The notes under the pieces: model-generated
Seen by the model: only the letters and a program-made list of their open reading frames with translations
What the model was told of the DNA's origin: nothing
Database searches by the model: none
Shown: positions 4,370-24,464 of the stretch, piece by piece
Layout of the letters: the number at the start of each line of letters is the position of its first letter
Numbering within the stretch: position 1 is the stretch's first letter
Translations under genes and position numbers: made by a program
Source: a virus
DNA: 64,000 bases
IMG/VR virus record: IMGVR_UViG_3300022926_000007
Coordinates: 1 to 64,000 of that record
Strand: one strand, 5' to 3'

Positions 4370-4377
4370 TTAGTTTT

Positions 4378-4652: not shown

Positions 4653-5525
4653 TTATTTAAGTTTGTCAAAAATTACAGGTTGATAATTTTCTATTGATTT
4701 TGAGTAATCAAATGCCGTTCTCCATAGTTGTCTATCTTTATTTTTAACAGCTGATCTTCTATGACTTGTAATTAGTTGATCCATAAACAATAAATCACCC
4801 TTTCTAAACACATGGTGTATCATGTATTTTGATCTTGTTACATCATTCCATAATTTATTATAAAATGTATCAAAATCTTCTATTTCTTTACCATCTCTAT
4901 ACCATGCTTTATATAGATAGATAAACATAGGATACAAATATTCTTTGCCGTTTACAGGATGTTTTGCAACTAAAGGTCGTCTATCTATTTCTTCTTTATA
5001 ATGTTTTTGTCCTGTTCTAAAGTTTTGTTCACCAACATTTTTGTATGCTTTAGAATAGACACCATCATCTCTCCATATTCGTGCTCGATCACCTTCATTA
5101 TTAAGATTTATATCTATACTTCTATAATAATTTTTATCTTCTTCAGATAAATTTTCAAAAGCATATTGTTGATTTACAATTGAAAGAACAGTATCTATAC
5201 ATTCTTCAACACAATATAATCCTACACAAATTTCTTTAAAGTTATATCTTCCAGTACCATTTGCATGCCATTCTAGTTCTGTTGGACCAAACATACCAAT
5301 TGGTTTGCCATTAATAACAGCACCTGACACAATACTTATTTGTGGTGAGTCTTTTGGATTCATAAAGTAGTCCAATTCTTCTACCTCACCTATTCTTGCA
5401 CAAACTTGAGCAAGTTGCTGTCTTGTTAAATCTTGTTCATGTAAAACAACAGAGCCTTCATTAACAATTTTATAAACTAATTCTGTTAACTCTTTATCTG
5501 TATAATTTATTATTTGTTTACTCAT
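4653..5525 (-). CDS. TauD/TfdA-like Fe(II)/2-oxoglutarate oxygenase, Asn variant
   Basis: About 290 aa with TauD-like landmarks: the first metal-site motif is ELEWHANGTGR (His87-x-Asn89) and the distal region is GDLLFMDQLITSHRR (His255, Arg257, the latter for 2-oxoglutarate). In TauD enzymes the first motif is HxD or HxE; here Asp is replaced by Asn, and the paralogue at 8162-8977 has the same change. Either an unusual iron site or altered chemistry is implied. The start at 5525 is preferred over 5552 because its ATG overlaps the previous stop as ATGA, like most junctions in this operon. Last gene of the leftward arm of the island. Substrate unknown. Confidence 0.75.
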   Translation of the reverse strand: MSKQIINYTDKELTELVYKIVNEGSVVLHEQDLTRQQLAQVCARIGEVEELDYFMNPKDSPQISIVSGAVINGKPIGMFGPTELEWHANGTGRYNFKEICVGLYCVEECIDTVLSIVNQQYAFENLSEEDKNYYRSIDINLNNEGDRARIWRDDGVYSKAYKNVGEQNFRTGQKHYKEEIDRRPLVAKHPVNGKEYLYPMFIYLYKAWYRDGKEIEDFDTFYNKLWNDVTRSKYMIHHVFRKGDLLFMDQLITSHRRSAVKNKDRQLWRTAFDYSKSIENYQPVIFDKLK

Positions 5526-6406
5526 AAATTTTCTAACAATGGTGTTATACAAATTCTTGCTGTATCATTCCATTTCATTCTACGTCTTTCAGCATAATAC
5601 TCATCTCTAGTGGTTGCTAAATAAAAACAATCAGACGGTTTAAAGCTATATTCATTACAAATTTGTACTTGTTTTTCTCTATACTTATTCCACATTTCAT
5701 CAACTTTAAAATTACTTATTATTAATTCTATAGTTTTAACGCCATTATAATTCCAATTCTCAAATCTTTTTAATCTATCAAGTGTAGAATGTGGTTCTTT
5801 TGTATATACTAATCCAAGTCGTTGACCTATAAGACCAAATCCTTTAGAAAAACTAAAAAAAACTTGTTCAGTATTTTTTGGTAGATTTATTCTTTGAATA
5901 TTTGTTGAACCTACATAAGTACAATCTAAAATTACAGGTGCTTCAATTTTACCTGGATCAAAATAATTTCCATCAGCAGCTGAGGGTATTGATATATACA
6001 GAGGTTTATTATTATCTATTTTGCCTTTCAATGCTGCTCTTCCAGTTTCCTCATTCATATATTGACCCGGCACATCACAAGTTACAATACTAGGTCTACT
6101 TATAATGTCAGCATATTCATATTCACCGTAACAAAGTTTTTGCCACTCTCTTTTTTCTGTCATTACCCAATGATGAATAGCATCTGTTGTACCATTTGTA
6201 AAATAACAATAATTGAAATCTGATAAATCTATTATTTCACTTACCCATTTTCTATGTAATTCTTCTACCTTATTTAAATCATTTGTTGCATGACCACTAC
6301 CTCTTTTATAATAAGTATCTGAAATTAGTTGTTGACTTATTATATCTTTTACTTCTTTAAATGTTGGTACGTCTACCCAACGATTATCTTTTAATTTTTC
6401 CTTCAT
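5522..6406 (-). CDS. PLP-dependent aminotransferase-like protein, 294 aa
   Basis: Fold-type I PLP enzyme pattern: FTNGTTDAIHHW near residues 69-80 (cofactor phosphate loop), PVILDCTYVGS (Asp for the pyridine nitrogen) and FFSFSKGFGLIGQRLGLVY with the probable Schiff-base lysine K188 and the following Arg. At 294 aa it is shorter than ordinary aminotransferases (about 380-420) and seems to have a reduced C-terminal domain. ATGA overlaps at both ends couple it to the oxygenase genes on each side, suggesting that the amine product or substrate is shared in one pathway. The specific substrate cannot be assigned. Confidence 0.7.
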   Translation of the reverse strand: MKEKLKDNRWVDVPTFKEVKDIISQQLISDTYYKRGSGHATNDLNKVEELHRKWVSEIIDLSDFNYCYFTNGTTDAIHHWVMTEKREWQKLCYGEYEYADIISRPSIVTCDVPGQYMNEETGRAALKGKIDNNKPLYISIPSAADGNYFDPGKIEAPVILDCTYVGSTNIQRINLPKNTEQVFFSFSKGFGLIGQRLGLVYTKEPHSTLDRLKRFENWNYNGVKTIELIISNFKVDEMWNKYREKQVQICNEYSFKPSDCFYLATTRDEYYAERRRMKWNDTARICITPLLENL

Positions 6407-7023
6407 ATATTCAGTAAGTCGTCTGTACCGTCTAAAGTAAACATTAAAGCTATTCTAGGTTTTTTACTCATATTTACAACAGCATGTTTATAACCTATAT
6501 TTAAAAAATATGCTTGTCCATCTTCAAGGTTATACGCTTCAATCTTATCATTTCTTTTAAATAAATTAATTACATTATTGTCACCATATATAGGCACTAT
6601 ACATCTAACACCATAACTTACATCATAATCAACATGCCAAGGTATCATTTTACCAGGCGCTAATTTTGTTATTCTTATTCTACTTGCAGGTGCTTTACAT
6701 TGAGATACAATATTTTCAAAATAACTACCTTTATAAATTTCAGTTGGCATATTATATAAATGTTCTTCTTTTCTTTTTAATCTTTCTTTTATACTTGTTG
6801 TATGAGATAAAATTTCACTAGGTGTTGTTAAATTTATTTGTTCAAAATTATCATATACACTTTTTACCAAATCTTCATGGTTCATACATAACATTGGATT
6901 GGCAGACCTAACGTCAACAAACGTATCTGCTATTAAATCAGTTGACTTTCTTAACTGTGCTAAATTAATATTTAAATTTAAATTAGCTATTGTTGGTAGA
7001 TTGTGTTTCGATAATTTCTCCAT
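6403..7023 (-). CDS. Aspartyl/asparaginyl beta-hydroxylase-like 2OG oxygenase, 206 aa
   Basis: The core reads RITKLAPGKMIPWHVDYDVS (first His with a following Asp), then an IPIYGDNNVINLF strand, GQAYFLNIGYKHAVVNMS (second His) and KPRIALMFTLDG (Arg that would bind 2-oxoglutarate). This order is characteristic of the Asp/Asn hydroxylase (AspH-like) branch of the cupin oxygenases. Unlike the two TauD-like proteins of the same operon it keeps HxD. It overlaps the upstream GNAT frame by about 40 bases. The natural substrate could be a free amino acid, a peptide or a glycan-linked residue. Confidence 0.7.
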   Translation of the reverse strand: MEKLSKHNLPTIANLNLNINLAQLRKSTDLIADTFVDVRSANPMLCMNHEDLVKSVYDNFEQINLTTPSEILSHTTSIKERLKRKEEHLYNMPTEIYKGSYFENIVSQCKAPASRIRITKLAPGKMIPWHVDYDVSYGVRCIVPIYGDNNVINLFKRNDKIEAYNLEDGQAYFLNIGYKHAVVNMSKKPRIALMFTLDGTDDLLNI

Positions 7024-7588
7024 TGTGTTCTCTTTCTATTATAAAATTAGATTTAGGTTGCCAGTTGTAGTCACCTTGTAATCTAATACTATAAACATAC
7101 TGTAACATTGTACCTGTTTTAAACAAAAACTTTGTTTCTAATTTTAAATTTTTGTACCACTCTCCATTTATAAATTTTTTAAATGCAGTATCAGTCATCT
7201 TTCTTTTTCTTTGATATAGATTATTTATTGCTCTATTTTTAATGTCATGTGTAATGTAAAGTATCTTAAATCCTTTTTCTCTTGCCCACTTTATCTGGTG
7301 TTCAGCCATAATTAATCCACAATGAGTATGTCTATATTCTTTTAAGATATGATAACGACAAACTCGCACTGCTACAGTTGGATCGTTTGTATAGTGTGAA
7401 CTTTCAGCAGCTGATATTGATATTAACTTATCATCTTTAAAACACATCCACGTTTCTATATTAGGATTATCAGGATTATATTTTTTATAAGTTATACTAT
7501 TATTGCCTTCATTAAAAGTTTGTAATCTAAATCTCTCAATTAAAGGCCAATACTTATTAGGATTTTCTGAATATCTTTTTACTATCAT
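6983..7588 (-). CDS. GNAT-type N-acetyltransferase-like protein, about 201 aa
   Basis: The central segment VRVCRYHILKEYRHTHCGLI with AEHQIKWAREKGFKILYITH follows the GNAT pattern of a beta-bulge, a degenerate pyrophosphate-binding turn and a helix, and NRAINNLYQRKR is a typical GNAT C-terminal 'N-x-x-A' segment. The start at 7588 (MIVKRYSENPNK) is chosen because this ATG forms an ATGA overlap with the methyltransferase stop; a longer frame to 7615 has no comparable signal. Acyl acceptor unknown. The long C-terminal tail (about 50 residues, polar) is unexplained. Confidence 0.6.
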   Translation of the reverse strand: MIVKRYSENPNKYWPLIERFRLQTFNEGNNSITYKKYNPDNPNIETWMCFKDDKLISISAAESSHYTNDPTVAVRVCRYHILKEYRHTHCGLIMAEHQIKWAREKGFKILYITHDIKNRAINNLYQRKRKMTDTAFKKFINGEWYKNLKLETKFLFKTGTMLQYVYSIRLQGDYNWQPKSNFIIEREHNGEIIETQSTNNS

Positions 7589-8193
7589 ACATGAGCAATA
7601 AGTCTTCGACCACAAAATATTTCTGCCTCAACAATATATTGTTCTTTAAATTTATATTGTTGCATATTGTTTGTAATTGTTTTTAACTTTAATTTTTCTT
7701 CATAGTATTTTTGTGTGTGATACGGTTCTTGTATTACAGCATTTTTACATTGATAGTAATTCATTATATCAGTAAACATTTTATAATGATTTTCTTCATA
7801 TAACAAAACACCACTAAAAATAATACAATCTACTTTGTAATCTACTGATTTTAGATTTGCCCAATCTCTTACTTCGTACTCAATGTTGTTTTCATTAATC
7901 CATCTTTTTTGAGCAAACTCTATAGGCTCTGGCGATGTATCAAAACCGTAGTAACGATAATCTTTATAATTTTTTTCACGTAAAAAATCATTGATAGGTC
8001 CATGTCTGCAACCAATATCAACAATACCTTTATAATTATTTTTTATAATTATTTCTGCTTGTTTTTCAAATATAGGTTTTGCTTCTAAAGTATCTAAGTA
8101 TGACATATCTCTTAAACTATACTGTCTTTTCATAGGTATTTCACCAGTTTTAGTTGTGATATTAGGCCAAGGTATAGATTTGTTTAAAGTCAC
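7585..8193 (-). CDS. Class I SAM-dependent methyltransferase
   Basis: Motif I is GIVDIGCRHGPINDF (SAM-binding glycine loop), followed by an acidic strand end YRYYGFDTSPEPIEFA and a motif IV-like VDCIIFSGVLLYEEN. About 200 aa, normal for small-molecule methyltransferases. The start is ambiguous: a GTG at 8193 has GGAGGA six bases upstream and is preferred over the TTG at 8199, while an internal ATG at 8133 with GGTGAA is possible. The gene overlaps the upstream oxygenase by about 30 bases. Methyl acceptor unknown; context suggests a step in the island pathway rather than DNA methylation, since no DNA-recognition region is seen. Confidence 0.75.
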   Translation of the reverse strand: MTLNKSIPWPNITTKTGEIPMKRQYSLRDMSYLDTLEAKPIFEKQAEIIIKNNYKGIVDIGCRHGPINDFLREKNYKDYRYYGFDTSPEPIEFAQKRWINENNIEYEVRDWANLKSVDYKVDCIIFSGVLLYEENHYKMFTDIMNYYQCKNAVIQEPYHTQKYYEEKLKLKTITNNMQQYKFKEQYIVEAEIFCGRRLIAHV

Positions 8194-8977
8194 TTGCAAT
8201 CCTCCATAATAGTCTATTGTTATCCATCACAGGTGTTCTACGGTGTAAACTTGTAAATTGATCCATTAATAACAAGTCACCCTCTTTAAAAATGTGATGA
8301 TATTGATATTGTGATTTAAATATTTTAGGTTTTAATTTATTAATCATTTCTTCAGCGTCTATTTGTTTTTTACCTTCCCACGCTTTTGTTATAAAATGAT
8401 ACGGAAAATAAAAATATTCTAAGCCTGTATGGGGATGTTTATCAACTAGTTTACGAATACTTCCTTTGTTTTTACTCATAAATTCTAATTCGGGATCGTC
8501 ATCCTCTAAATTGTATATTGTATTGTTTTTAAATTTTAATCTTATTGTAATTGATCTCCAATAATTCTTTTCATCATCTGACATATCATAAAATGGTTGT
8601 TGAGTGTTACAGACACTTAAAGTTGTATTAATATCTTCTTTTACACAATACAAGGCAATTAAAATTTTGTCTATCAAATGCCTAGAATTTCCATTTGAAT
8701 GCCAACCTAATTCTGTATCTCCAAACATACCTATTTTTTTACCATCAACTTTTTTACCTGTAACTAAAAAGATTTCTGGATAATCTTTTGGATTCATAAA
8801 CAAGTTAGGAGCCTCACACTCACCAAATCTTTTCATTGTATCAATATATTCTTTTTCATTTAATTGTTGATTATAGAATACAGCTACACCTTGTTGATGT
8901 ACATTTTTTGCAACATCAAGTAATTCTTCATTAATCATATCTTTTATTTGTTTATCTATTTTTTTAGGGTATATCAT
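8162..8977 (-). CDS. TauD/TfdA-like 2OG oxygenase paralogue, Asn variant, 271 aa
   Basis: Clear paralogue of the protein at 4653-5525: both share the FMNPKDxPxI segment, GKxIGMFGxTELxWHxNG, and a GDLLxMDQ...HRR distal motif. Here the metal motif is LGWHSNGNSRH (His93-x-Asn95) with distal His245 followed by Arg-Arg. The same Asp-to-Asn replacement in both copies indicates an inherited feature rather than a random inactivation. ATGA overlap with the upstream gene. Two related but diverged copies in one operon suggest two successive or parallel oxidations. Substrate unknown. Confidence 0.75.
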   Translation of the reverse strand: MIYPKKIDKQIKDMINEELLDVAKNVHQQGVAVFYNQQLNEKEYIDTMKRFGECEAPNLFMNPKDYPEIFLVTGKKVDGKKIGMFGDTELGWHSNGNSRHLIDKILIALYCVKEDINTTLSVCNTQQPFYDMSDDEKNYWRSITIRLKFKNNTIYNLEDDDPELEFMSKNKGSIRKLVDKHPHTGLEYFYFPYHFITKAWEGKKQIDAEEMINKLKPKIFKSQYQYHHIFKEGDLLLMDQFTSLHRRTPVMDNNRLLWRIASDFKQIYTLA

Positions 8978-9633
8978 AATATATTTTCTACCATTTCTTT
9001 AAAATCTTTATAGTCTAATATCTTAGGTATGTTATTCCATCTTGTTACCCAAGCACATCTAGGTGCTTCTGTAATAACTACTCTATGCATAATATCAGTT
9101 CTAATTAACACTGGTCTATTTTCTAAAACTATTTCACCTATTTTTCTATCACTTAAAAACTTTTCAAACTCGGGTGTGTATTGACCCATTTCTTTTTGTG
9201 CTTTAAACTCATGGTAGTATGCATGACCATGTGCGTTTTTTTCAGGCAAATAAACTTCTTCATCTTTTGTTTCAAAATAATCAATACGAGATTTACCAAA
9301 CACAGGTATAACAATGTTATAACCATTAGGGTGTTCAGTATCTAAATCTATATCTGTATGAGCAAATACATCTTTTTCTGTACTATCAGCTGTATTGAAA
9401 CCTGTTGAACGAAATTGATAATGTGGATGTACTTTTCTATGTTTAGATAATATAGGATTAAATACTTGTTCATATCCCGTAGGTTTACCTGTTTTATTAT
9501 CTTCAAGTGAATAACTTACAAATGGTGTTTTACCAAATGTATTGTTAACATTACTTTTAACTTTATTGTACAAAGACAAAAGTAATTCTGTATCAGTTGC
9601 TACGTTTATGTATTCAGCTACACCTTGTATCAT
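8974..9633 (-). CDS. Probable cupin-fold 2OG oxygenase, 219 aa
   Basis: Contains DVFAHTDIDLDTEH (His-x-Asp), a following strand GYNIVIPVFGKSRIDYFETK and a distal ENRPVLIRTDIMHRVVITEA with His, then PRCAWVTRW with a basic residue. The spacing fits a Fe(II)/2OG double-stranded beta-helix of phytanoyl or AspH type, though overall similarity to a named family was not recognised. It sits between the TauD-like gene and the peroxiredoxin, with ATGA overlaps on both sides, so it is expressed with them. Less certain than the other oxygenases of this operon. Confidence 0.55.
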   Translation of the reverse strand: MIQGVAEYINVATDTELLLSLYNKVKSNVNNTFGKTPFVSYSLEDNKTGKPTGYEQVFNPILSKHRKVHPHYQFRSTGFNTADSTEKDVFAHTDIDLDTEHPNGYNIVIPVFGKSRIDYFETKDEEVYLPEKNAHGHAYYHEFKAQKEMGQYTPEFEKFLSDRKIGEIVLENRPVLIRTDIMHRVVITEAPRCAWVTRWNNIPKILDYKDFKEMVENIL

Positions 9634-10061
9634 AGTTTATATAAAACACCATCTATAAATGGGTCCTCAAATTCTTTTGTTATACTTCCATTTTCAACTA
9701 ACAAAGCATATCGTTCACTTCTTACACCAAAACTGTCTCCCCAATCAACATCTTTTTTAAGATGTTTTGTAAACACTGCCAATGGATCAGATACACTATC
9801 TATTTCAGAATGACCATGTTGTTTATTCCAAACATCCATGACATATGCGTCATTAACACTTACAAATATTACTTTATCTACACCAAATAATTTTAACTTA
9901 TCTAATTTTTCTGCAAACCCTGGAAGATGTTTATTTGTACAAGTGTTTGTAAATGCACCAGGAATACCACATAATATAATTTTTAATTTATCGTCTACTT
10001 CATAGGGTACAATTTTTTTATCTTTTAAAATGTAAAGACCTTTACTACTTATTTTTTCCAT
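9630..10061 (-). CDS. Peroxiredoxin, Prx5-like, 143 aa
   Basis: Contains IPGAFTNTCTNKHLPGF with the peroxidatic cysteine at residue 41 in the PGAFTxTC context diagnostic of the Prx5/AhpC-TSA group, and GVRSERYALLVENG, which supplies the conserved arginine. At 143 aa it is slightly shorter than free-living Prx5 proteins (about 160). It reduces peroxides using thiols. Located in an operon of iron oxygenases it could protect them, or the host, from peroxide by-products. ATGA overlap with the oxygenase downstream and 13-base overlap with the FMN reductase upstream. Confidence 0.8.
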   Translation of the reverse strand: MEKISSKGLYILKDKKIVPYEVDDKLKIILCGIPGAFTNTCTNKHLPGFAEKLDKLKLFGVDKVIFVSVNDAYVMDVWNKQHGHSEIDSVSDPLAVFTKHLKKDVDWGDSFGVRSERYALLVENGSITKEFEDPFIDGVLYKL

Positions 10062-10630
10062 TTACTATCCCATTCATTATATTTTTTCTGCCAATCACTT
10101 ACTTGATCTAGCATGTTTTTGTTAATTATTTCTTTACTCTCACTTTCGACAAACTTGTAATTATCTGGTACTAACTTTTCCCAACAATCATGTTTTACAA
10201 ACATTTTTTTTACGTTACCACCTAACTTTTCTAACAACTCTTTTGTCATATCAAAATGTCTATCGCCAGCACCTTTTTTAACAGGTGTAAATGATATAAC
10301 ATATATTTCTTTATTTGATATTGAATACTGTTGACCTAAATCTGCATTATAATATGCCTTTACAACTAACCAGTCCATAAGATTTTTAAAACCTACACAA
10401 TAATGACCAGTGTATTCAGGTATAGAAAAAACTAATTTATCACTTTTACTTAATATATTGTCTATAGCTTCTACCTCTTTAGGAATAATACCGTCTGGTC
10501 TATTTGAATTGCAAATAGGTAAATCCAATTTAATGATGTTTGAAAATTTGATGTAGTGGTCCATTAATAATAGACCTCTATAACTCATAGAGCTTTCACT
10601 ATAACTAAAAGATACTGCTGTCGTATTCAT
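10049..10630 (-). CDS. NAD(P)H-dependent FMN reductase-like flavodoxin-fold protein
   Basis: Residues 1-60 form a flavodoxin-like beginning (TTAVSFSYSESSMSYRGLLL). The hallmark is LVFSIPEYTGHYCVGFKNLM followed by DWLV, equivalent to the PEYNGS...KNALDWLS motif of NADPH-dependent FMN reductases. Length 193 aa is normal. It would deliver reduced flavin or electrons, plausibly to nitroreductase-like or other redox enzymes of the island. The last gene before a short gap (10631-10655) to the desaturase gene. Confidence 0.75.
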   Translation of the reverse strand: MNTTAVSFSYSESSMSYRGLLLMDHYIKFSNIIKLDLPICNSNRPDGIIPKEVEAIDNILSKSDKLVFSIPEYTGHYCVGFKNLMDWLVVKAYYNADLGQQYSISNKEIYVISFTPVKKGAGDRHFDMTKELLEKLGGNVKKMFVKHDCWEKLVPDNYKFVESESKEIINKNMLDQVSDWQKKYNEWDSKWKK

Positions 10631-10655
10631 AATTTAAAAATCAATATAATATATA

Positions 10656-11285
10656 TTACTTAAATAACTTCTCTGCTAACCAACCACCTGTATCGTATTT
10701 GTGTAATCGTATTCTTTTAAAATTGTCATGGTGATTTCTATGATATCCTTCACCTGCAATAAAAAAGTTTAACCATGGTACATTTGCACCACCTGGAGTT
10801 CTATGACCTACTGTATTTAATAAACCAAATCCTATTTTAGCAAATACAAATGGTACAACACAAAATGATATCCAAAAGTACGGACTAATTAAAAAACTAA
10901 TTATATTTACTGAAATTAAAATATGTAACCAGTATTTGTGGCAAAAAACTAGTCTAGGATTTTTATACAAATCTCTAGCATATTTACTTGGTATATTTTT
11001 TATATCCCATGTTGTAAATAATACTTTCCAAAAACCTACATACTTAGATGCATGAGGGTCTTCTGGACCATCTGAATGTTTGTGATGAATACGATGGCTT
11101 GCAATCCAACCAATGGGTGTTCTTATACATGCAATCATCAGCATTGAAAGACCTAACACTTCAAACCATACAGGAACTTTAAACTGATTGTGACAATAAT
11201 GTCTATGTAATAAAATACTAGCACCTAAGTGTGAAATTATTTCGGACCAAATGACACCTATAAAAATAGCAAATAACCAATCCAT
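10656..11285 (-). CDS. Membrane fatty-acid desaturase-like protein, 209 aa
   Basis: Three histidine boxes of the integral membrane desaturase superfamily are present: HRHYCH (His27-His32), HRIHHKH (His64-His70) and, near the C-terminus, GEGYHRNHH. Hydrophobic segments lie before box 1, around residues 40-55 and between boxes 2 and 3 (YWLHILISVNIISFLI and following). It most resembles acyl-CoA delta-9 desaturases but is short (usually about 290-330 aa), retaining mainly the catalytic core. It would act in the host inner membrane on acyl chains. Electron donor could be the neighbouring flavin reductase, by inference. Confidence 0.8.
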   Translation of the reverse strand: MDWLFAIFIGVIWSEIISHLGASILLHRHYCHNQFKVPVWFEVLGLSMLMIACIRTPIGWIASHRIHHKHSDGPEDPHASKYVGFWKVLFTTWDIKNIPSKYARDLYKNPRLVFCHKYWLHILISVNIISFLISPYFWISFCVVPFVFAKIGFGLLNTVGHRTPGGANVPWLNFFIAGEGYHRNHHDNFKRIRLHKYDTGGWLAEKLFK

Positions 11286-11291
11286 TATATT

Positions 11292-11579
11292 CTATTGACC
11301 CTCTAAACTATAAGATACTGAATTTTCAGAACAAAAGTTTTCTAAATTTTGACCGTTTTGTGTATTAACTGGTTCATTTATAAATTCCTGATAGGCAGCT
11401 TGATCTACAAAGACTGTTGTCCAAGTTTCTACTAAACCATCAACAGTTTTAACAGGTTTTTGTGTTATTTTACCTTGGTCAAAATAACTATCAATCAAAG
11501 CTAATATGTCATTGTTCCAAAAGTTAATTTCAACACCTTCGTTTGGTTTTTGATAAACGTTTCTAAATGTATAACTCAT
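11292..11579 (-). CDS. Hypothetical protein, 95 aa
   Basis: Not recognised. Begins MSYTFRNVYQKPNEGVEINF; contains a WTTVFVDQAAYQEFINEP segment reminiscent of small alpha-beta sandwich (ferredoxin-like/ABM) proteins, but this is weak. No signal peptide or membrane segment. It sits within the leftward arm of the island between the desaturase and an oxygenase gene. A TATAAATA occurs five bases before its ATG and might be a late promoter or chance. Confidence 0.5.
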   Translation of the reverse strand: MSYTFRNVYQKPNEGVEINFWNNDILALIDSYFDQGKITQKPVKTVDGLVETWTTVFVDQAAYQEFINEPVNTQNGQNLENFCSENSVSYSLEGQ

Positions 11580-11587
11580 AATACTAT

Positions 11588-12037
11588 TTATATAACCCCT
11601 ACTATATGTATTCTATCCAGCATGGAGGCGTTTAATGCTGTGTGATTTTTTGTTGTATCAACTACATGATAATTACCATCTGCAGGATAATGAAAAATTT
11701 GTTTATCTATAATTATAAAACAACTTTCATTTGTTTCAATAGGTATGTGTATTCTTTTTGATAAATCTTTATGATAAGTATAACATGTTTTAGGTTTTAA
11801 ATTCATTACTCTGGTACGATACATTTTTAAATCTGATAAAATACTGTTAATATAAGGCAGATCAAAAATAAATGTGCTAAAATCTGTTTCTTTATATCCC
11901 ATTTCATATTTTTCATTCCATTTACCCACACCCCAAAATGGATCTAAATTATCTTTGGTACCTTGAAGACAAATTTGTTCATCAAACTTAGGTAATAGCT
12001 TTAGTTCACTTTTTATTTTTTCTATATCTAAGGACAT
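11588..12037 (-). CDS. Small 2OG oxygenase-like protein (Asp/Asn hydroxylase type), 149 aa
   Basis: The C-terminal half shows CYTYHKDLSKRIHIPIET (His-x-Asp plus a basic residue), CFIIIDKQIFHYPADGNYHV and DTTKNHTALNASMLDRIHIV, i.e. first His, cupin strands, distal His and an Arg. This is a compact AspH-like arrangement, shorter than usual because the N-terminal part is only about 85 residues. It is the fifth iron-oxygenase-like gene of this arm. It overlaps the SDR gene upstream by 10 bases. Substrate unknown. Confidence 0.6.
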   Translation of the reverse strand: MSLDIEKIKSELKLLPKFDEQICLQGTKDNLDPFWGVGKWNEKYEMGYKETDFSTFIFDLPYINSILSDLKMYRTRVMNLKPKTCYTYHKDLSKRIHIPIETNESCFIIIDKQIFHYPADGNYHVVDTTKNHTALNASMLDRIHIVGVI

Positions 12038-12462: not shown

Positions 12463-12476
12463 ATACTTATTTAGAC

Positions 12477-12513
12477 GATAAATATTGACAAATTTATCAA
12501 AATGTGTTATAAT
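12477..12513 (+). promoter_or_regulatory. Composite late (GATAAATA) and perfect sigma-70 promoter
   Basis: GATAAATA at 12477-12484 is directly followed by TTGACA at 12485-12490, a 17-base spacer and TATAAT at 12508-12513. This is an exact sigma-70 consensus. The ATG of the first rightward gene is at 12520, where transcription from this promoter would begin, so that transcript would be leaderless. Confidence 0.85.
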
Positions 12514-12519
12514 ATATAT

Positions 12520-15986: not shown

Positions 15987-16374
15987 TAAACTTAAAAAAT
16001 ATAAATCTGAACTTACTTTTCCTGATAAAGATAAAAATGAATTAAAGCCTAAATGTATTTTTGAAAACCAAGAACTTACCTTATCAAGTATGGGATATTT
16101 TACACCTTGTTGCTGGGTTGATGACGAGTTATATAGAAATCAACCTTGGGTAAAAAGTTTATTTAAAGAGCATTTAAAATTACAAAATAATGAAAAAGTT
16201 GAAGACATTTTTAAAAGTAAAGAATGGACAGATTTTTATAATATGTTAAGAAATAATCCCAAAGATGCTCCACCTGTATGTTATAAATTTTGTAGTAAAG
16301 GTGTCATTACAAGAAAAATAAAAAAAAAAGAACATGAAAAAAATAACTCAATTTATACAATGGTAAAACACTAA
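15979..16374 (+). CDS. SPASM-like C-terminal cluster domain, split partner
   Basis: About 131 aa starting at the ATG at 15979 (an upstream in-frame GTG exists at 15967). It carries a cysteine pattern typical of an auxiliary Fe-S domain: KCIFENQELTLSSMGYFTPCCW, that is C, then CC about 20 residues on, and PPVCYKFCSK near residue 105. It lacks CxxxCxxC, so it cannot act alone as a radical SAM enzyme. The ATG lies within the last codons of the preceding core gene, suggesting translational coupling or a frameshifted fusion. Confidence 0.7.
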   Translation: MNNKLKKYKSELTFPDKDKNELKPKCIFENQELTLSSMGYFTPCCWVDDELYRNQPWVKSLFKEHLKLQNNEKVEDIFKSKEWTDFYNMLRNNPKDAPPVCYKFCSKGVITRKIKKKEHEKNNSIYTMVKH

Positions 16375-17198
16375 TGAAAACCTTAGACGAAATACAAGAT
16401 AATTATTTAGCTATAGACTTCTTTTTGTCAATGTCATGTAATAAGAATTGTCATTACTGTACAAGTTATACTTTAGAAATGAGAAATCTAACAGTTGATA
16501 TGAACTTTTTAAAACAAACTTTAGGTTATCTTAAAAATTATAAAATTAGAATATGTCTATTAGGTGGTGAACCTGGCCTTATCAAAAACTTAGATGATGT
16601 AATAAATGAAATAAAAAAATATCCTAACTTTGTATGTTCAGTATTATCTAATTCATTTGTTCGTAAAAGATATCCACATATACTTGAAGATAGAGATATA
16701 CTTTATGTTGAACACAATATATTAGATTGGTATGAAAATGAAGTAACAAAATTAGGTAACTTTGATTATATACCTGAAAATGATTTTAACAATTATAATG
16801 TTGTTGTAAGAACGCCTAACTATTACAAATATAAAGATAATCATCCTGATGTATTACAAAAATTAAATCACAAAAACACAATGTGGAAAGCATTTAATGG
16901 TAGGTCAAAAGATTTTACAGATGTTATACAAGCAGATGAAATTGATCGTAAAATGTGTGCGGCCTTTCCTATGGTGCCAGTTATTGATTTTGAAAAGAAA
17001 CATATTGTACATTGTAGTAAAAAGTTTGCTAACAATACCGAACTATCTAAAACATTTGAACTGACACAAGAAAATATTGATAAGATGATGAACTTTAGAT
17101 TGTTTAAATATGAAAATTATTGTAAGACCTGTACTGAATGGGTACAACCAAAAGGACATTTTCCTATGAGAAAATATGCAAAGGTACTAAATGACTAA
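16374..17198 (+). CDS. Radical SAM protein, 274 aa
   Basis: Motif SMSCNKNCHYCTSYT gives CxxxCxxC around residues 20-27, followed by ICLLGGEPGLIKN (the GGEP SAM-binding motif) and SVLSNSF. The C-terminal part has HCSKKF and YCKTCTEWVQPKGH, suggesting a second, partial cysteine cluster. The length is short for a SPASM enzyme. TAATG overlap with the preceding gene and ATGA with the carbamoyltransferase place it firmly in the operon. Radical chemistry on a sugar or small molecule is likely; the reaction cannot be specified. Confidence 0.8.
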   Translation: MKTLDEIQDNYLAIDFFLSMSCNKNCHYCTSYTLEMRNLTVDMNFLKQTLGYLKNYKIRICLLGGEPGLIKNLDDVINEIKKYPNFVCSVLSNSFVRKRYPHILEDRDILYVEHNILDWYENEVTKLGNFDYIPENDFNNYNVVVRTPNYYKYKDNHPDVLQKLNHKNTMWKAFNGRSKDFTDVIQADEIDRKMCAAFPMVPVIDFEKKHIVHCSKKFANNTELSKTFELTQENIDKMMNFRLFKYENYCKTCTEWVQPKGHFPMRKYAKVLND

Positions 17199-18675
17199 AA
17201 TATATTCTGTAGCACTAAACTTACATGATCACAATACCTATGATGGTGTGTTTCATAATCAAAGAGAAAGATTTACAAGATTTAAACATAATCTACCTTA
17301 TCATGCTGAGGCTTATGCTCATCAATCAGATATTTTAAATCCTGCAGATTATAGACTAAACAATGAATTTGTAAAACAATATTTTGTTAGAAAAGAAGAT
17401 GTATTAGCATTTACATATACCTATGGTGGTGTTAGAATGTGTAAAGATATGTTACCGCAAGATGTATTCAAATATGAACCTAAAAAACTATGGGATTATT
17501 ACTACAAAGATGGATTATATTTTATAGATCATCATCAATCTCACGCCACTTATGCCTTTATTAATTCAGGTTTTGAACAATCGGATATATTAGCAATTGA
17601 TGGTATAGGATCAAAATATAGATGTGTGTTTTTTGATAAAGACCAAAATTTAATGGATTTGTCTGATAAGTTACCTATAGGTTGGTTATGGAATCATATG
17701 TCTAACTTTACAGGTTTTGGCACACTAGGTGCAAGTAAACTAATGGGACTAGTTGCATATGGTAAATTTAGTCAATACTACTATAATATTTTTCAAAGAA
17801 TATTAAACGGCCCGATTACTGAAAAAAAACAAGATTTTTCCTACATAAGTATAGACAATTATGGATTGCACGATTTAGCCCACACACTACAAGTATTTAC
17901 AATGGATAAGATAGAAGAATACGTATATCCACTAAAAAGTTGTGACAATCTTTGTATTGCTGGTGGTGTTGCATATAACGGTTATATGAATGAAGAATTT
18001 ACAAAACATTATAAAAATGTATTTGTACCACCTGCTGTTGGTGATGAAGGACAGGCAATCGGTACATATCAACACGCTGACTACATATTAAATAACAATA
18101 TACACAAATCAGAAACATTTGCTGGTAAACAATATGAATATAATGAAGGTGAACAAGTGAATTATAAAGAGGTTGCACAAGCAATTGCTGACGGTAAAAT
18201 AGTTGGTTGGTTTCAAGGAAAATCTGAAAGTGGCAATCGTGCATTAGGTAATAGAAGTATATTAGCTGATCCTCGTAATCCTGACATCAAAGATATTATT
18301 AATCATACCATAAAAATGAGAGAAGACTTTAGACCATTTGCACCTGCTGTTTTAGAAGAACACTATAAAGAATATTTTGATACAAGATTACCCAGTCCTT
18401 ATATGAGTAGAATATGTAAAGTTAAAACTGATAAAGTGCCAGGCATAACACATAAAGATAATACCGCAAGAATACAAACAGTTAATAAAAAATTTAATGA
18501 AAAGTTTTATAACATTATAAATGAGTTTTACAAAATAACAGGCGTACCAATGTTATTAAACACAAGTTTTAATTGTCAGGAACCCATAGTAGAAACACCC
18601 GAACAAGCTATTAGAACATTCAAACGAACAGCATTAGATATATTAGTTATAAATGATAAGATTTTAAAAAAATGA
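17191..18675 (+). CDS. Carbamoyltransferase (NodU/CmcH family), 494 aa
   Basis: N-terminal actin-like domain with YFIDHHQSHATYAF (metal-binding His pair) and ILAIDGIGSKYR, then CIAGGVAYNGYMN, VGDEGQAIGTY and a C-terminal YrdC-like part with WFQGKSESGNRALGNRSILA and MLLNTSFNCQEPI. These are signature segments of NodU/CmcH/TobZ O-carbamoyltransferases, which transfer carbamoyl from carbamoyl phosphate through carbamoyl-AMP to a hydroxyl of a sugar or antibiotic. It is somewhat shorter than the usual 540-600 aa, mainly before the HHxSHA motif. Suggests that the island product bears an O-carbamoyl group. Confidence 0.88.
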   Translation: MTKIYSVALNLHDHNTYDGVFHNQRERFTRFKHNLPYHAEAYAHQSDILNPADYRLNNEFVKQYFVRKEDVLAFTYTYGGVRMCKDMLPQDVFKYEPKKLWDYYYKDGLYFIDHHQSHATYAFINSGFEQSDILAIDGIGSKYRCVFFDKDQNLMDLSDKLPIGWLWNHMSNFTGFGTLGASKLMGLVAYGKFSQYYYNIFQRILNGPITEKKQDFSYISIDNYGLHDLAHTLQVFTMDKIEEYVYPLKSCDNLCIAGGVAYNGYMNEEFTKHYKNVFVPPAVGDEGQAIGTYQHADYILNNNIHKSETFAGKQYEYNEGEQVNYKEVAQAIADGKIVGWFQGKSESGNRALGNRSILADPRNPDIKDIINHTIKMREDFRPFAPAVLEEHYKEYFDTRLPSPYMSRICKVKTDKVPGITHKDNTARIQTVNKKFNEKFYNIINEFYKITGVPMLLNTSFNCQEPIVETPEQAIRTFKRTALDILVINDKILKK

Positions 18676-19367
18676 AACATTTTGATTTATTAGAGCAAAA
18701 AAGAAAACACGTTAAAACTTATAGTGAAAAAATACCTCCTAAGAAGTTAATAGAACAGGCATTATGGAAAGCGTGGAAAACTTCTCCTTCTAAAAATAAT
18801 GCTATGGCATATCAAGTAATAGTTTGGGGACCTGATAAAGAATTAGAAAAGGCAGCTATTCATAGTTTAGTTGTAAAAAATCACAAACACGCTGAAGATA
18901 GAGCTGTTGAAAAAAAGTTAATGAATAAAACTCAAGATGTTAAATTGGGTGTAGTTGAAAACCCATATTATCGACACATAAAAGAAAATCCGTATTTAAT
19001 AACAATACATAGTAGAATAGCAAAACCAAATAAATTTTATGAAGAACAGATAAAAACAGGACACTTTTACGATCAAGCATATAATCCAGAAGATATAATA
19101 GACTCTGTAGCTGTTGAAGTAGGTATATTTGCAGCTAATTTGACAAACTATTTACTAGAAGAAGGATTAGATATGTCTTATAATTCTTGTTTCAAAAGAG
19201 ATATTAAAGACTGGCACAACGTTGGTTTATATATGGTTAAACAAAGACCGATCACAATGATATCTTGTGGTTATGCTGAAAGGTATAGACGTGATGATTT
19301 AAAAAGTTGTGGAAAAGAAACTTGGGATATAAAACCTGAAATAAATGATATTGTAAAATGGATATAG
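18672..19367 (+). CDS. Nitroreductase-like FMN oxidoreductase, 231 aa
   Basis: Residues 20-55 (PPKKLIEQALWKAWKTSPSK then NNAMAYQVIVWGP) match the N-terminal FMN-binding helix and 'S-x-x-N-x-Q-x-W' pattern of nitroreductases. Later VGIFAANLTNYLLEEGLDMS corresponds to the dimer helix, and ITMISCGYAE to the final FMN-contact strand. Overlaps: ATGA with the carbamoyltransferase, 10 bases with the methyltransferase. May reduce an enoyl or nitro/imine group in the island product; the true substrate is unknown. Confidence 0.7.
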   Translation: MKHFDLLEQKRKHVKTYSEKIPPKKLIEQALWKAWKTSPSKNNAMAYQVIVWGPDKELEKAAIHSLVVKNHKHAEDRAVEKKLMNKTQDVKLGVVENPYYRHIKENPYLITIHSRIAKPNKFYEEQIKTGHFYDQAYNPEDIIDSVAVEVGIFAANLTNYLLEEGLDMSYNSCFKRDIKDWHNVGLYMVKQRPITMISCGYAERYRRDDLKSCGKETWDIKPEINDIVKWI

Positions 19368-19948
19368 ACTTACAATTATTTAAAAATATAATGGCAGAGG
19401 CCAGACACAATGATGATCTTTTAGACTCATATAGTCCTAATCAATTTAAATCAAAAGAGGTATTAATTAATCACATTAATAGTTTAAATATTTTAAATGA
19501 TAAATCTGAAATTATAATACTAGGAAGTTGGTATGGCAGTATATTAATTCCTGCATTTAAACAAGTTAAACGAATTACCGCTATAGATTTAGATAAAAAT
19601 GTTATTAGTATTGCTAAAAACAGATTATTTAATCATTATAAAAATGTAGATTTTATTACCAGTGATGTTTTTGACAAAAACAGATATGGTAGAATACAAA
19701 ATGCCACTTTAATTATTAATACGTCTTGTGAACATATGAAACCTATGAATGAATTAAAGGCTTTAGAAAATTCAAAATCATATTTTGCTTTTCAGTCTAA
19801 TAATATGTTTAATATACCTACACACATCAATTGTGTAAATAACATAGAAGAATTTAAAGAACAAATGCCAAGTAACGCAAAAATAATGATTGAAGATCAC
19901 ATTAAAGATGATAGAGGCACTAGATTTTTATTAATAGGTAAATTATGA
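19358..19948 (+). CDS. Class I SAM-dependent methyltransferase-like protein, 196 aa
   Basis: Motif I is IIILGSWYGSILIPAF (a degenerate glycine loop), motif II RITAIDLDKNVISIAKNRL with the acidic residue for the ribose, and a motif IV-like ATLIINTSCEHM. The fold is a plain Rossmann methyltransferase without an obvious target domain. The first glycine pair is replaced by G-S-W-Y-G, so SAM binding could be weaker than usual. Probably O- or N-methylates an intermediate. Confidence 0.65.
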   Translation: MDIDLQLFKNIMAEARHNDDLLDSYSPNQFKSKEVLINHINSLNILNDKSEIIILGSWYGSILIPAFKQVKRITAIDLDKNVISIAKNRLFNHYKNVDFITSDVFDKNRYGRIQNATLIINTSCEHMKPMNELKALENSKSYFAFQSNNMFNIPTHINCVNNIEEFKEQMPSNAKIMIEDHIKDDRGTRFLLIGKL

Positions 19949-20808
19949 AAAGAGTAATTTATAGTTTTTACATTGACATTCCTAAAGATGAATTAGATAT
20001 ATTTGACAAAAATATACTTAAAAAAAATCATACACCAATAAATTATGTGACTAAAGATGCATTTAAACAAAACTATTCTAAGTTAGTGGCCTGCAAACAA
20101 TGGTATGCTGATCAAATAAATGTACCTTTTAAGATGTTTGAATATGATACTAATTTTATATTATATAAAGATAACCTACAATCAAAATATCCATTTCTAA
20201 CAACCTACAATGTGGTTAATTTTTATAAACTACATTTACTGTATGAGCTATCTAAACAATATGATGAAATACTTTATTTAGATTTTGATGTTGTGCCTAT
20301 GAAGTCAGACAACTTTTTTGAAACTTGGGACTTATCAAAAGGTATAGCGATCCATCACAATACACATAAAGTAATTAAGATGGAAGCGGTAACCGAATAT
20401 TCACAAACTATTCGTAGTCCAACATCAAAATACTATAATACTCAAGCTATGTTATTAGATAGAGGTTTGAATCCTGTACATAAGGTTGTAAACACAGGTA
20501 TTGTTGGTGCAAGTAAAAAACATTTACAACAACTTAAATACTTTGATAATTTTGATTCGGATATGAAAGAAATGAGTAAACTAACAACAGGCCATGATAT
20601 GTTTCCAAAAAAAATAACAAACTTTTTTGGTTGGGATAATGAAACACTTTTTGCAGTTAAACTTGCAGAAAACAAAGTAGATGTACAATGGTTAGATGAC
20701 AACTGGCACTATTTTTTTTCAACACAAGGTTTTATACCAAAAGATATAGTATTATGTCATACTATTAATAAACAATTTGATGTTGTTTGGAGAGCATATA
20801 ATGCTTAA
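19945..20808 (+). CDS. GT-A glycosyltransferase-like protein, 287 aa
   Basis: Contains YDEILYLDFDVVPMKSDNFF, a DxD metal/nucleotide-sugar motif after a hydrophobic strand, and later NTGIVGASKKHLQQL and HDMFPKKITNFFGWDNE, a pattern of acceptor-side motifs found in GT8- or GT32-like enzymes. No membrane segment. Three further GT-like genes lie in this arm. It is coupled by an ATGA overlap to the methyltransferase and overlaps the next GT gene by 8 bases. Confidence 0.7.
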   Translation: MKRVIYSFYIDIPKDELDIFDKNILKKNHTPINYVTKDAFKQNYSKLVACKQWYADQINVPFKMFEYDTNFILYKDNLQSKYPFLTTYNVVNFYKLHLLYELSKQYDEILYLDFDVVPMKSDNFFETWDLSKGIAIHHNTHKVIKMEAVTEYSQTIRSPTSKYYNTQAMLLDRGLNPVHKVVNTGIVGASKKHLQQLKYFDNFDSDMKEMSKLTTGHDMFPKKITNFFGWDNETLFAVKLAENKVDVQWLDDNWHYFFSTQGFIPKDIVLCHTINKQFDVVWRAYNA

Positions 20809-21541
20809 AATTTGTACAGTTTATTTCAAAGGTACATATACTCCAGACTATGTGTCAAAACTTTATAGATCATTAAAAAGAAACAGTACAATACCTTTTC
20901 AATTTATATGTTTAAGTGATACAGATGTTGAAGCTGATATTGTGTTACCGTATAATCACCATAGTCATGTAAAAAAACATTGGCATAAGTTAAAGTTTTT
21001 TAGTCCACAGTTTGCTTATCAACAACCAGGTGATGATATTATCATAATGGACATAGATCAAGTTATTACAAATAACGTAGATGACTTATTAAACTATCCT
21101 GTAAATGAGAATGAACTTGTAAGTTATGGACAATGGTGGGATATTAAATTAAAATTAAATGGTGGATTTTACAAATTTAAATCTGGTAGTTTAAAAACTG
21201 TATGGGATGATTTTGCACTAAATCCTGAATACTGGCAGTTACACTATTATAATAAGGGTGATGTTCACACAAAGTATTATGGAGAACAAAATTATGTTAA
21301 TTGGAAAGTACAAGAACACAATATAAAACTAACTTTAACACCACAACAATGGTTATGTAAATATACAGATGATTTTAAACAAAATTTAAAATTAAATAAA
21401 ATTTATAGCAAAAAGTTTAATACAGATTATATGATATTAGATAATGTTAATAAATATATAAAGATTATTCACTTTACAGGTATTAATAAAACAATACATA
21501 ACAGTAATCATAAATTTTTAAAGGAATATTGGAATGAGTAG
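20801..21541 (+). CDS. GT-A glycosyltransferase-like protein, about 246 aa
   Basis: Begins MLKICTVYFKGTYTPDYVSK; contains FQFICLSDTDVEADIVLPYN and DDIIIMDIDQVITNNVDDLL with the DxD motif, and NGGFYKFKSG as a possible acceptor loop. The start at 20801 is taken rather than 20777 because GGAGAG lies a few bases upstream and the overlap with the preceding gene is then only 8 bases. Related in layout to the preceding gene and to 22409-22993, suggesting a set of sequential sugar transfers. Confidence 0.7.
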   Translation: MLKICTVYFKGTYTPDYVSKLYRSLKRNSTIPFQFICLSDTDVEADIVLPYNHHSHVKKHWHKLKFFSPQFAYQQPGDDIIIMDIDQVITNNVDDLLNYPVNENELVSYGQWWDIKLKLNGGFYKFKSGSLKTVWDDFALNPEYWQLHYYNKGDVHTKYYGEQNYVNWKVQEHNIKLTLTPQQWLCKYTDDFKQNLKLNKIYSKKFNTDYMILDNVNKYIKIIHFTGINKTIHNSNHKFLKEYWNE

Positions 21542-22412
21542 TAAAGACTGGACAAGAAAAGAGTGGGAAGAGTGGTATAAAAAAACCATGTATTCATTTG
21601 ATATTGAAAGACAAAGTGTATTAAATGCTCAAAAGTGTCAAAGAAATTGGGATAGAACAAGAAAAATATTACCAGAAGTAAGAGATCACTTTTTATGGTT
21701 AGCACAAAACGCTCCATCAAAACAATATGAAGCGTATTATGATGTATACTGGACTGATAATAAAGAAGTAATAGATGAATGTTCTAACTATACATGGGGA
21801 AATACACATAGTAGAACACCACCATCTAATTGGAAAAATTCTCAACAAAGAGCTTCACTCTATATTTTATTTGTAGGAAAAGAACCAGAAACTCGATTAA
21901 ATTGTAATGCAGATGGAACTTTAAAAGAAAATTCACACCATGAAAGATGGCTTAATGCTTACGTAAGTATAGGTATTGCAATGGGTTTAATTTTACAGTC
22001 TGCAAACAAATTAGGACTATCTACAGGATGTAATAAAAGTCATAATGACATAAACGGTGATGATTATTGGCCTAAAAGATTAGGTATATTAGAAGATGTA
22101 GATAAAGGTAAAAAATTAATATCTTATGGCATTGGTATAGGGTTTCCTATAAAAGGTAAACCAAGATATTGGTCAGATCAAACTGAATTAATGATAGGTG
22201 CGGCTAACGGAAGTAAAATTACTACAACTAATATGGAAAAACATCCTAGAACTGGTCACTCTATGAGAAAAGTAAAAATAGTTGATATTACAAAACACGC
22301 AGGAGAAACTATAGAGGATCCATATGGCAATTTTCATAAAATTCCAGATGAGTCTTTAACAAAAATAAATACACCAAGGATAAGAAAAATTAATCTTATT
22401 GAAATAAAATGA
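21534..22412 (+). CDS. Second nitroreductase-like protein, 292 aa
   Basis: WLAQNAPSKQYEAYYDVYWT aligns with the SPS/N-Q-P-W FMN motif of nitroreductases, and NAYVSIGIAMGLILQSANKL with GLSTGCNKS is the characteristic dimer helix and following loop. The first 45 residues are Trp/Lys/Glu-rich and unusual. Conserved-looking ISYGIGIGFPIKGKPRY would be the last FMN strand. It differs strongly from the other nitroreductase at 18672-19367, so it is not a recent duplicate. Possible role: reduction of an oxidised intermediate. Confidence 0.65.
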   Translation: MSSKDWTRKEWEEWYKKTMYSFDIERQSVLNAQKCQRNWDRTRKILPEVRDHFLWLAQNAPSKQYEAYYDVYWTDNKEVIDECSNYTWGNTHSRTPPSNWKNSQQRASLYILFVGKEPETRLNCNADGTLKENSHHERWLNAYVSIGIAMGLILQSANKLGLSTGCNKSHNDINGDDYWPKRLGILEDVDKGKKLISYGIGIGFPIKGKPRYWSDQTELMIGAANGSKITTTNMEKHPRTGHSMRKVKIVDITKHAGETIEDPYGNFHKIPDESLTKINTPRIRKINLIEIK

Positions 22413-22993
22413 GAATAATTTGTTGTAGATTTGGTAATAAATTTACTCAATGGCATGTTGATAACTTAAAACACATGATAGACGAATACTCTGGTCTAAA
22501 ATATGATAGTTTTGAAGTTATTGAAGATGATCTATACGGCAATTGGTTTAACAAGTTTCAAATGTATGATAGATTTAGAGATAGTGAAAATTTATATTTT
22601 GATTTAGATGTAGTTATCTATGACAGACTTCCTAATCTTATAAGAAAAAACTTTACACTATTAGATGACACATGGTGGAGAGAACCAGCTCATACACCTT
22701 TAAATTCATCAATAGTATCTTGGACAGGTGATGTATCTTATATATGGAATAAGTTTAAAGAAAATGATAAAGAATATATTAAAACATACACTAAAGGCAG
22801 TGATGAATGGTACTACAAAAATATAAAATATGAAACTTACGATAGAATATGTCCATCAATAAAAGATTATATTTATCAAAAACCACCACAGTTCAGTATA
22901 TGTACACTTGGACAAATGCACCACTTACAAGAAGAAGGATGGACAGGTTGGTATTCTAATTATTTTTTATCTAAACACTCAAACGCAGCTTGA
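22409..22993 (+). CDS. Small GT-A glycosyltransferase-like protein, 194 aa
   Basis: Contains SENLYFDLDVVIYDRLPNLI, a DxD motif in the same setting as in the two GT-A genes upstream, preceded by an N-terminal strand MRIICCRFGNKFTQWHVDNL. The C-terminal half is Trp-rich (DDTWWREPAHTPLNSSIVSW), as in some galactosyl- and glucosyltransferases. At 194 aa it is a minimal GT-A domain. Last gene of the rightward arm; its end overlaps the convergent gene at 22960-23454 by 34 bases, so the island ends abruptly against core genes. Confidence 0.6.
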   Translation: MRIICCRFGNKFTQWHVDNLKHMIDEYSGLKYDSFEVIEDDLYGNWFNKFQMYDRFRDSENLYFDLDVVIYDRLPNLIRKNFTLLDDTWWREPAHTPLNSSIVSWTGDVSYIWNKFKENDKEYIKTYTKGSDEWYYKNIKYETYDRICPSIKDYIYQKPPQFSICTLGQMHHLQEEGWTGWYSNYFLSKHSNAA

Positions 22994-24459: not shown

Positions 24460-24464
24460 ATATT

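Follow-up and report, generated by a model that had tools for sequence, protein, structure and literature searches.

An eight-gene core, exchangeable cassettes and a predicted carbamoylated glycan in a gene island among the tail genes of a marine T4-like phage

Structure of the island

The window analysed here, positions 1 to 64,000 of the 81.7-kb IMG/VR virus record IMGVR_UViG_3300022926_000007, comes from a marine T4-like phage close to the Pelagibacter phage Mosig, which infects HTCC1062. Among its tail genes lies an island of 26 main reading frames, of which we document the conservation, gene order, selection, promoter motif and enzyme families. The 26 genes are not one co-inherited set: an old core of eight genes is accompanied by cassettes that can be exchanged and by a second module. 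The core encodes a GT-B transferase, a DegT aminotransferase, a radical S-adenosylmethionine (SAM) enzyme, an O-carbamoyltransferase, a methyltransferase and three GT-A-like transferases. The reading that we prefer, even if its probability falls a little short of even, is that the plus-strand operon assembles a glycan in the cytoplasm and that its carbamoylated aminosugar goes onto an envelope glycan of the host.

The frames form two operons of 13 genes each, A1–A13 on the minus strand and B1–B13 on the plus strand (Table 1), which diverge from a single gap of 57 bp. The gap lies exactly at 12463-12519, between the ATG starts of A13 (12462) and B1 (12520). The number of frames, their strands, the two divergent operons and the gap are as had been claimed in an earlier reading made from the sequence alone (the sequence-only reading). 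That reading also described overlaps of 1–40 bases nearly throughout. Overlaps are present in 21 of the 24 pairs of same-strand neighbours and range from 1 to 41 bp, those longer than about 20 bp hinging on the choice of TTG or GTG starts, but the pairs A9/A10, A10/A11 and A11/A12 are separated by gaps of 6–25 bp. The G+C content is 27–29% in the island and 29–38% in the rest of the window.

The boundaries of the island were defined by comparison with the more distant phage HTVC008M, which has the flanking genes f8–f11 (right) and f1–f4 (left), a single structural gene between f8 and f4, and neither f5 and f6 nor any part of the island. The left end of the window falls inside the tail-fibre genes. 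On the right side f9 and f10 match VrlC of Mosig and HTVC008M and are followed by gp8 (f11; Phage-Gp8 Pfam 4e-18), which places the island beside VrlC in the structural module.

Recurrence of the core, the cassettes and the second module

A scan of IMG/VR with B7 gave 254 relatives, of which the best 80 (76–100% identical) were read. The eight core genes (B1, B3, B6, B7, B9, B10, B11 and B13) were present in all 35 contigs spanning B1 to f5, some of them near-identical to each other, and in the same order in 34. The independent bait B13 recovered 30 further contigs with the same neighbouring genes as far as the contigs reach. The genes B2, B4/B5, B8 and B12 are variable, having been gained or lost, relocated or duplicated between core genes. 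Two additional cassettes were detected in the same gaps: 21 loci have a PP-loop ATPase-like protein, and 22 have a twitch-domain radical SAM protein (NCBIfam 1.4e-87).

The genes A3–A10 make up the second module; 17 divergent contigs keep its order over the part that they cover. The pair A1–A2 changes position among contigs: each of the eight homologues of A1 is accompanied by A2, and elsewhere the pair sits between A9 and A10. In two contigs (L094 and L097) the A module follows immediately 3' of the B core and has the same orientation. Recurrence of the genes as one set, raised in the sequence-only reading, thus applies to the core, which is not scattered, and does not extend to all 26 genes.

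One contig, L084, is a mosaic in which A1–A13 and B1 are 99–100% identical to the window, B2–B7 drop to 88–97% and f1–f4 to 41–68%, which suggests that the island recombined at its tail-fibre end.

Selection, ancestry and presence in hosts

All island genes with enough data had a median ratio of nonsynonymous to synonymous substitution rates (dN/dS) of 0.11–0.56, reflecting purifying selection. The genes are thus not degraded; degradation was one of the findings that the sequence-only reading had named as speaking against it. The ratios were lowest in A3, A6, B6, B7 and B13 (0.11–0.13), below those of the neighbouring tail genes (0.16–0.34), and were 0.11–0.29 in the core genes. Decay of A4, B11 and B13 was considered and rejected, as the apparently 'broken' copies most likely result from tblastn running past overlapping stops or alternative starts.

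Protein distances of B7 were correlated with those of the tail genes f5, f6 and f9 (Mantel r 0.76–0.82), the highest value being with f6 (0.82); between tail genes the correlations were 0.68–0.77. As the core distances track the tail genes as well as these track each other, the core is an old resident of the lineage. The island had been called 'inserted', which is true in that it occupies an otherwise short interval between tail genes relative to HTVC008M, but not in the sense of a recent event.

No match for B1, B6 or B13 was found beyond Mosig among 50,697 phage records. Among 297 SAR11-family genomes B13 was present in none and B6 in one, the single match being a phage-like contig of a metagenome-assembled genome (MAG). 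Carbamoyltransferases related to B7 were present in 176 of the 297 genomes, with 31–37% identity in the seven regions compared, and in the regions read they adjoin genes for DegT, epimerase/dehydratase, methyltransferase, nucleotidyltransferase and glycosyltransferases. Since these carbamoyltransferases lie among polysaccharide genes, such hosts probably make carbamoylated surface sugars. Taken together, the results suggest that a virus lineage may keep its own sugar pathway, the key enzymes of which were not found in its probable hosts.

A recent bacterial donor was also rejected: a B6 scan of genome contigs matched three MAG contigs, probably misbinned phage, two of which hold the flanking tail genes while the third carries a piece of this operon. 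The bacterial-MAG contigs L103, L104 and L105 (PAFP01000047, PAHC01000009 and NYWC01000079), placed in species genomes, appear to be pelagimyophage DNA.

That the island consists of host surface-glycan genes acquired by chance and kept as packaging filler can hardly be credited. Headful-packaging 'stuffer DNA' has been proposed for the lipopolysaccharide (LPS) genes of cyanophages (PMC3037559), and the cassettes do turn over, but the strong purifying selection, the fixed order of the core and its co-divergence with virion genes argue against it, as do the searches of the SAR11-family genomes described above, in which B6 and B13 were not found apart from the phage-like contig.

Enzyme families

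Most of the enzymes listed in the sequence-only reading were recovered with Pfam: TauD and Asp/Arg hydroxylase (two of each), GNAT, two methyltransferases, redoxin, FMN reductase, desaturase, DegT, two radical SAM proteins and carbamoyltransferase. The pyridoxal-phosphate (PLP) enzyme A2, the SGNH hydrolase B2, the GT8 protein B10 and the second nitroreductase B12 remained below the curated cut-offs, and the short-chain dehydrogenase/reductase proposed for A13 had neither a Pfam nor an NCBIfam match. The four glycosyltransferase-like genes were upheld: the fold of B1 is GT-B-like, B11 and B13 match a PHROG glycosyltransferase family, and B10 has a weak Pfam match to GT8. The model of B1 had 16 PDB matches with E<=0.001, mostly to GT-B transferases and with low TM-scores; B1 and B13 gave nothing significant in PDB profile searches.

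In PDB profile searches the nearest solved relatives of B3 were sugar aminotransferases, including QdtB and WbpE. B7 has both a Kae1-like N-terminal and a YrdC-like C-terminal domain (Pfam PF02543 and PF16861, and the PDB profile search), and its nearest solved relatives by profile are the antibiotic O-carbamoyltransferases GdmN, NovN and TobZ. It shares both catalytic domains with these and with NodU but is shorter, and carbamoyl transfer is predicted.

In B6 the motif CxxxCxxC and the cysteines C195, C214, C250 and C253 are invariant. A DesI/DesII deoxysugar pair would combine DegT with a DesII-type radical SAM deaminase; B3–B6 are adjacent in 55 contigs, but B6 matched no DesII model and had weak matches to QueE, NrdG2 and viperin. 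Its identification as viperin or QueE was rejected, the similarity being limited to the N-terminal part and far below the cut-offs. B4 and B5 are split into separate overlapping genes, and Mosig has the same split.

Promoter motifs

The promoters are predictions from motif matches. The sigma-70-type element abuts B1 in most lineages where B1 is the first gene: among 32 distinct regions upstream of B1, 12 had at most one mismatch to the motif and several more had two. The motif was not detected upstream of the tail genes f4 and f6. The T4-late-type TATAAATA was present upstream of f4 in 17 of 20 and upstream of f6 in 14 of 24 cases; as counts of late motifs alone are uninformative at this AT content, their position relative to gene starts was used.

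Sites of the B1-promoter pattern numbered eight in the window, compared with 0.7 expected in shuffles. Such sites (TTGAC...TATGNTATATT type) are located on the minus strand at 44016-44044, 58136-58164, 59924-59952 and 61054-61082 and are, judged by their motif, candidate early promoters of this phage group.

Predicted product and alternative explanations

An oligosaccharide with a carbamoylated aminosugar is the product suggested by the DegT aminotransferase, the carbamoyltransferase, the methyltransferase and the four glycosyltransferase-like genes. B3 would make the aminosugar from a keto-sugar nucleotide of the host, B6 and B9 would alter it and B7 would add the carbamoyl group, after which the four glycosyltransferases B1, B10, B11 and B13 would assemble or lengthen a cytoplasmic oligosaccharide. 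The decoration would be varied by the cassettes between core genes and by the minus-strand Fe/2-oxoglutarate (2OG) oxygenases, GNAT, methyltransferase and desaturase. The product would be attached to an envelope glycan precursor of the host and exported by host machinery, and the receptor surface would change while infection proceeds, which would act against co-infecting phages or keep progeny from re-adsorbing. The sequence-only reading is supported in part: the island among the virion genes is metabolic and functional, and a carbamoylated aminosugar or glycan, which that reading had considered as one of several products, fits best.

No multi-pass proteins were found around the operon in 98 loci, except desaturases and TctA-like genes in two contigs, and the flippase Polysacc_synt_3 (PF13440) was not found in five records. 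The island differs thereby from a Wzx/Wzy O-antigen locus, as it has no multi-pass flippase, polymerase or initiating transferase. With multi-pass proteins scarce and no flippase, assembly is expected to be cytoplasmic, the acceptor being either a lipid-linked glycan of the host or a virion protein. We infer the identity of the sugar, its acceptor and its benefit; a host envelope glycan precursor is the likelier acceptor given the lack of a flippase, polymerase or ligase in the operon together with the usual host-type promoter. A host glycan is favoured over the virion also because related enzymes occur in host-type polysaccharide clusters and the promoter is of early type.

The TctA-like gene, nine- to ten-pass, lies near the glycan operon at L016:9193-10458 and L030:8540-9805 and is possibly a phage-encoded nutrient transporter.

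Several observations weigh against modification of the host surface. The placement between tail genes and the co-divergence with them are also expected of virion modification, and radical SAM/SPASM and Asp-hydroxylase families often act on peptides. Mosig and the contigs L039 and L040 have no sigma-70 site and carry instead a palindromic late-type TATTTATATAAATA before a nitroreductase-like first gene. Several of the sigma-70 regions also hold a late-like NATAAATA, and the B operon may, going by these motifs, be expressed both early and late.

Clearly less probable, yet a serious competitor, is that the same enzymes glycosylate, hydroxylate, methylate and acetylate Ser/Thr-rich tail-fibre proteins in the cytoplasm and thereby shield the virion or retune its adsorption. 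The island is nearly always beside the tail genes f5–f7 or f1–f4, the divergence of the core follows f6 most closely, the enzymes are soluble with no export genes found, and Ser and Thr make up 27% of f6, f7 and f1. The late-type motif of Mosig, L039 and L040 fits this explanation as well, and so do the four 2OG oxygenases that HTVC008M encodes in this tail region. The sigma-70-type promoter of most lineages does not, phage structural proteins are commonly rich in Ser and Thr, and adjacency is weak evidence, as T4-like tail regions are general sites of gene exchange. Rather doubtful is the further step that the island is a phage-exclusive factory of one viral lineage, not borrowed as a unit from SAR11, which uses radical SAM enzymes, 2OG oxygenases, carbamoyltransferases and glycosyltransferases dedicated to this task to put an unusual carbamoylated glycan directly on its own tail proteins and changes recognition by hosts or competing phages through cassette swaps.

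A diffusible small molecule or modified peptide, of the nucleoside-antibiotic kind or resembling a ribosomally synthesised and post-translationally modified peptide (RiPP), is an unlikely product. The mix of a carbamoyltransferase nearest to GdmN, NovN and TobZ with radical SAM/SPASM proteins, nitroreductases and 2OG oxygenases is reminiscent of natural-product clusters, but there is no export gene, the fixed core has four glycosyltransferases and the SAR11-family relatives of B7 are found among polysaccharide genes. No RiPP precursor peptide was recognised beside the radical SAM genes, where reading frames shorter than 60 aa were not systematically examined.

The sequence-only reading held that no enzyme of DNA hypermodification is present, which is unsafe to state from sequence alone, as phage carbamoyltransferases of the superfamily of B7 can modify 5-hydroxymethylcytosine (5hmC) in vitro (MetaGPA, PMC8670742). 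We consider it very improbable that DNA is the substrate, with B7 carbamoylating hydroxymethylated bases and B1 acting as a DNA glycosyltransferase, even if the T4 alpha-glucosyltransferase is among the fold matches of B1, where it ranks low. Six records, including Mosig and three of 129–171 kb, some of them fragments, were searched for the required partner, and no homologue of thymidylate synthase/dCMP hydroxymethylase was found in any, the positive controls being detected; base modification is disfavoured on this ground. ThyX is present in Mosig and G003. Moreover, the identity of B7 to the tested 5hmC enzyme is 28% over 236 aa, compared with 35% over 472 aa to a SAR11-family carbamoyltransferase, and DegT would have no role.

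Comparison with known systems

The enzyme mix had seemed unrecognised in the sequence-only reading, but the island is of the already described 'host recognition cluster' type of pelagimyophages, a large and variable gene region that has VrlC on one side and the neck gene gp14 as its other boundary and contains tail fibres, glycosyltransferases and radical SAM cassettes, for which O-chain modification and avoidance of co-infection have been proposed (Zaragoza-Solas et al. 2020, PMC7029224). Tail fibres and glycosyltransferases that vary between phages are shared by the island of the window. The earlier study stresses variability and does not mention a carbamoyltransferase in its main text; our data set differs in the invariant eight-gene core, the second module, the conserved promoter motif and the likely absence of key enzymes from hosts. 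In the literature searched we found none of these four features described, nor the cassette logic. What had been a vague 'variable region with glycosyltransferases' can now be described as a defined operon of eight genes, for which a product and a promoter are predicted.

In the annotated genome of Mosig EXVC030M (MT647606) the divergent island is found again at the corresponding site, with 44–87% identity for most of the core and module proteins; the announcement of this genome does not discuss the island (PMC7892664). Mosig differs in having no A1, A11 or A13, in its first gene, which is a different nitroreductase, in the late-type motif of its promoter and in an epimerase gene located beyond f5. 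This NAD-dependent epimerase is found in four related phages (G001:101305-101820, G002:64575-65090, G003:107989-108504 and, just beyond f5, Mosig 71998-72513), where it could supply the sugar nucleotide; the record of the window has no such gene. In the ocean few forms of life are more abundant than SAR11 and its phages, and Mosig on HTCC1062 is a cultured phage-host pair in which the operon is present.

The cyanophages P-SSM2, S-SM2 and S-SSM7 (PMC3037559), also marine and T4-like, have LPS-type clusters with carbamoyltransferases, but these are located near hli03, phoH and tRNAs and not between tail genes. Their carbamoyltransferases are about 30–37% identical to B7, and B1, B6 and B13 are unmatched in them.

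Other features of the window and of HTVC008M

Table 1. Genes and promoter of the island and its flanks (E-values after the database; dN/dS are medians).
Feature	Description	Position	Strand	Evidence and remarks
f1–f4	Tail-fibre region, left boundary	1106..4596	-	Homologous in HTVC008M; late-type motif upstream of f4
A1	TauD-family Fe/2OG oxygenase	4653..5552	-	Pfam TauD 2.6e-19
A2	PLP-dependent aminotransferase-like, 294 aa	5522..6406	-	Pfam Aminotran_1_2 E=0.008, sub-cut-off; SFSKGFGLIGQRLG motif; dN/dS 0.23
A3	Asp/Arg beta-hydroxylase family	6403..7023	-	Pfam 1.1e-6; A module; dN/dS 0.11
A4	GNAT acetyltransferase	6983..7615	-	Pfam 3.4e-5
A5	Class I methyltransferase	7585..8199	-	Pfam 9e-9
A6	TauD-family Fe/2OG oxygenase	8162..8977	-	Pfam 1.9e-21; dN/dS 0.11
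A7	Candidate Fe/2OG oxygenase	8974..9633	-	H92-x-D94, H183, R192 invariant in 8 homologues
A8	Peroxiredoxin (redoxin)	9630..10061	-	Pfam 2.6e-19
A9	NADPH-dependent FMN reductase	10049..10630	-	Pfam 4.7e-9
A10	Membrane fatty-acid-desaturase family enzyme	10656..11285	-	Pfam 2.1e-11
A11	95-aa protein	11292..11579	-	5 homologues; dN/dS 0.44
A12	Asp/Arg beta-hydroxylase family	11588..12037	-	Pfam 3.7e-9
A13	Short Rossmann-like frame	12028..12462	-	
Promoter	Sigma-70-type, extended -10, TTGACA-N17-TATAAT, for B operon (predicted)	12485..12513	+	Sole exact match in 64 kb
B1	Glycosyltransferase, GT-B-like fold, core	12520..13389	+	AlphaFold pLDDT 77
B2	SGNH/GDSL hydrolase, variable, often duplicated	13386..14153	+	Pfam 8.6e-4, sub-cut-off; copy number varies
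B3	DegT/DnrJ/EryC1 sugar aminotransferase, core	14137..15399	+	Pfam 3.1e-80; invariant Lys179
B4	Radical SAM core domain, variable cassette	15396..15986	+	Pfam 1.2e-6
B5	Separate SPASM domain, partner of B4	15967..16374	+	Pfam 9e-4
B6	Radical SAM enzyme, core	16374..17198	+	Pfam 2.5e-7; dN/dS 0.115
B7	O-carbamoyltransferase, 494 aa, core	17191..18675	+	Pfam 4e-66, 1e-20; dN/dS 0.126
B8	Nitroreductase family, variable cassette	18672..19367	+	Pfam 7.6e-8
B9	Class I methyltransferase, core	19358..19948	+	Pfam 2.5e-5, just sub-cut-off
B10	GT8-like glycosyltransferase, core	19945..20808	+	Pfam GT8 E=0.0085, sub-cut-off; DxD motif; 75 homologues
B11	GT-A-like glycosyltransferase, core	20777..21541	+	phrog_1962 glycosyltransferase 5e-14
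B12	Nitroreductase-like, variable cassette	21534..22412	+	Pfam 0.0055, sub-cut-off
B13	GT-A-like glycosyltransferase, last core gene	22409..22993	+	phrog_1962 1.7e-5; invariant DLD; dN/dS 0.12
f5	Convergent flanking gene	22960..23454	-	Adjoins B13 in 55 contigs; HTVC008M without homologue at this site
f6, f7	Ser/Thr-rich tail-region proteins	23480..25316	-	Late-type TATAAATA upstream of f6
f9, f10, f11	f9, VrlC-like f10 and baseplate gp8 (f11), right virion boundary	25577..34235	-	Homologous in HTVC008M

In the minus-strand operon A7 looks like a fifth oxygenase solely by its invariant HTD...H...R pattern; it had no Pfam match and no significant match in the PDB profile search, and its fold model was discarded as too poor (pLDDT 40). 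A11 matched no family in Pfam or PHROG. A10, with four predicted transmembrane segments, is the sole multi-pass protein of the island.

A different cluster of carbamoyltransferase, methyltransferase and UDP-sugar dehydrogenase genes is present in HTVC008M (KC465899) at 126105-132312, near the ribonucleotide reductase genes, and the four 2OG oxygenases of its tail region lie together with a ferrochelatase at 56402-59681. The window also contains a lone tRNA-His gene (GTG) at 43518-43594.

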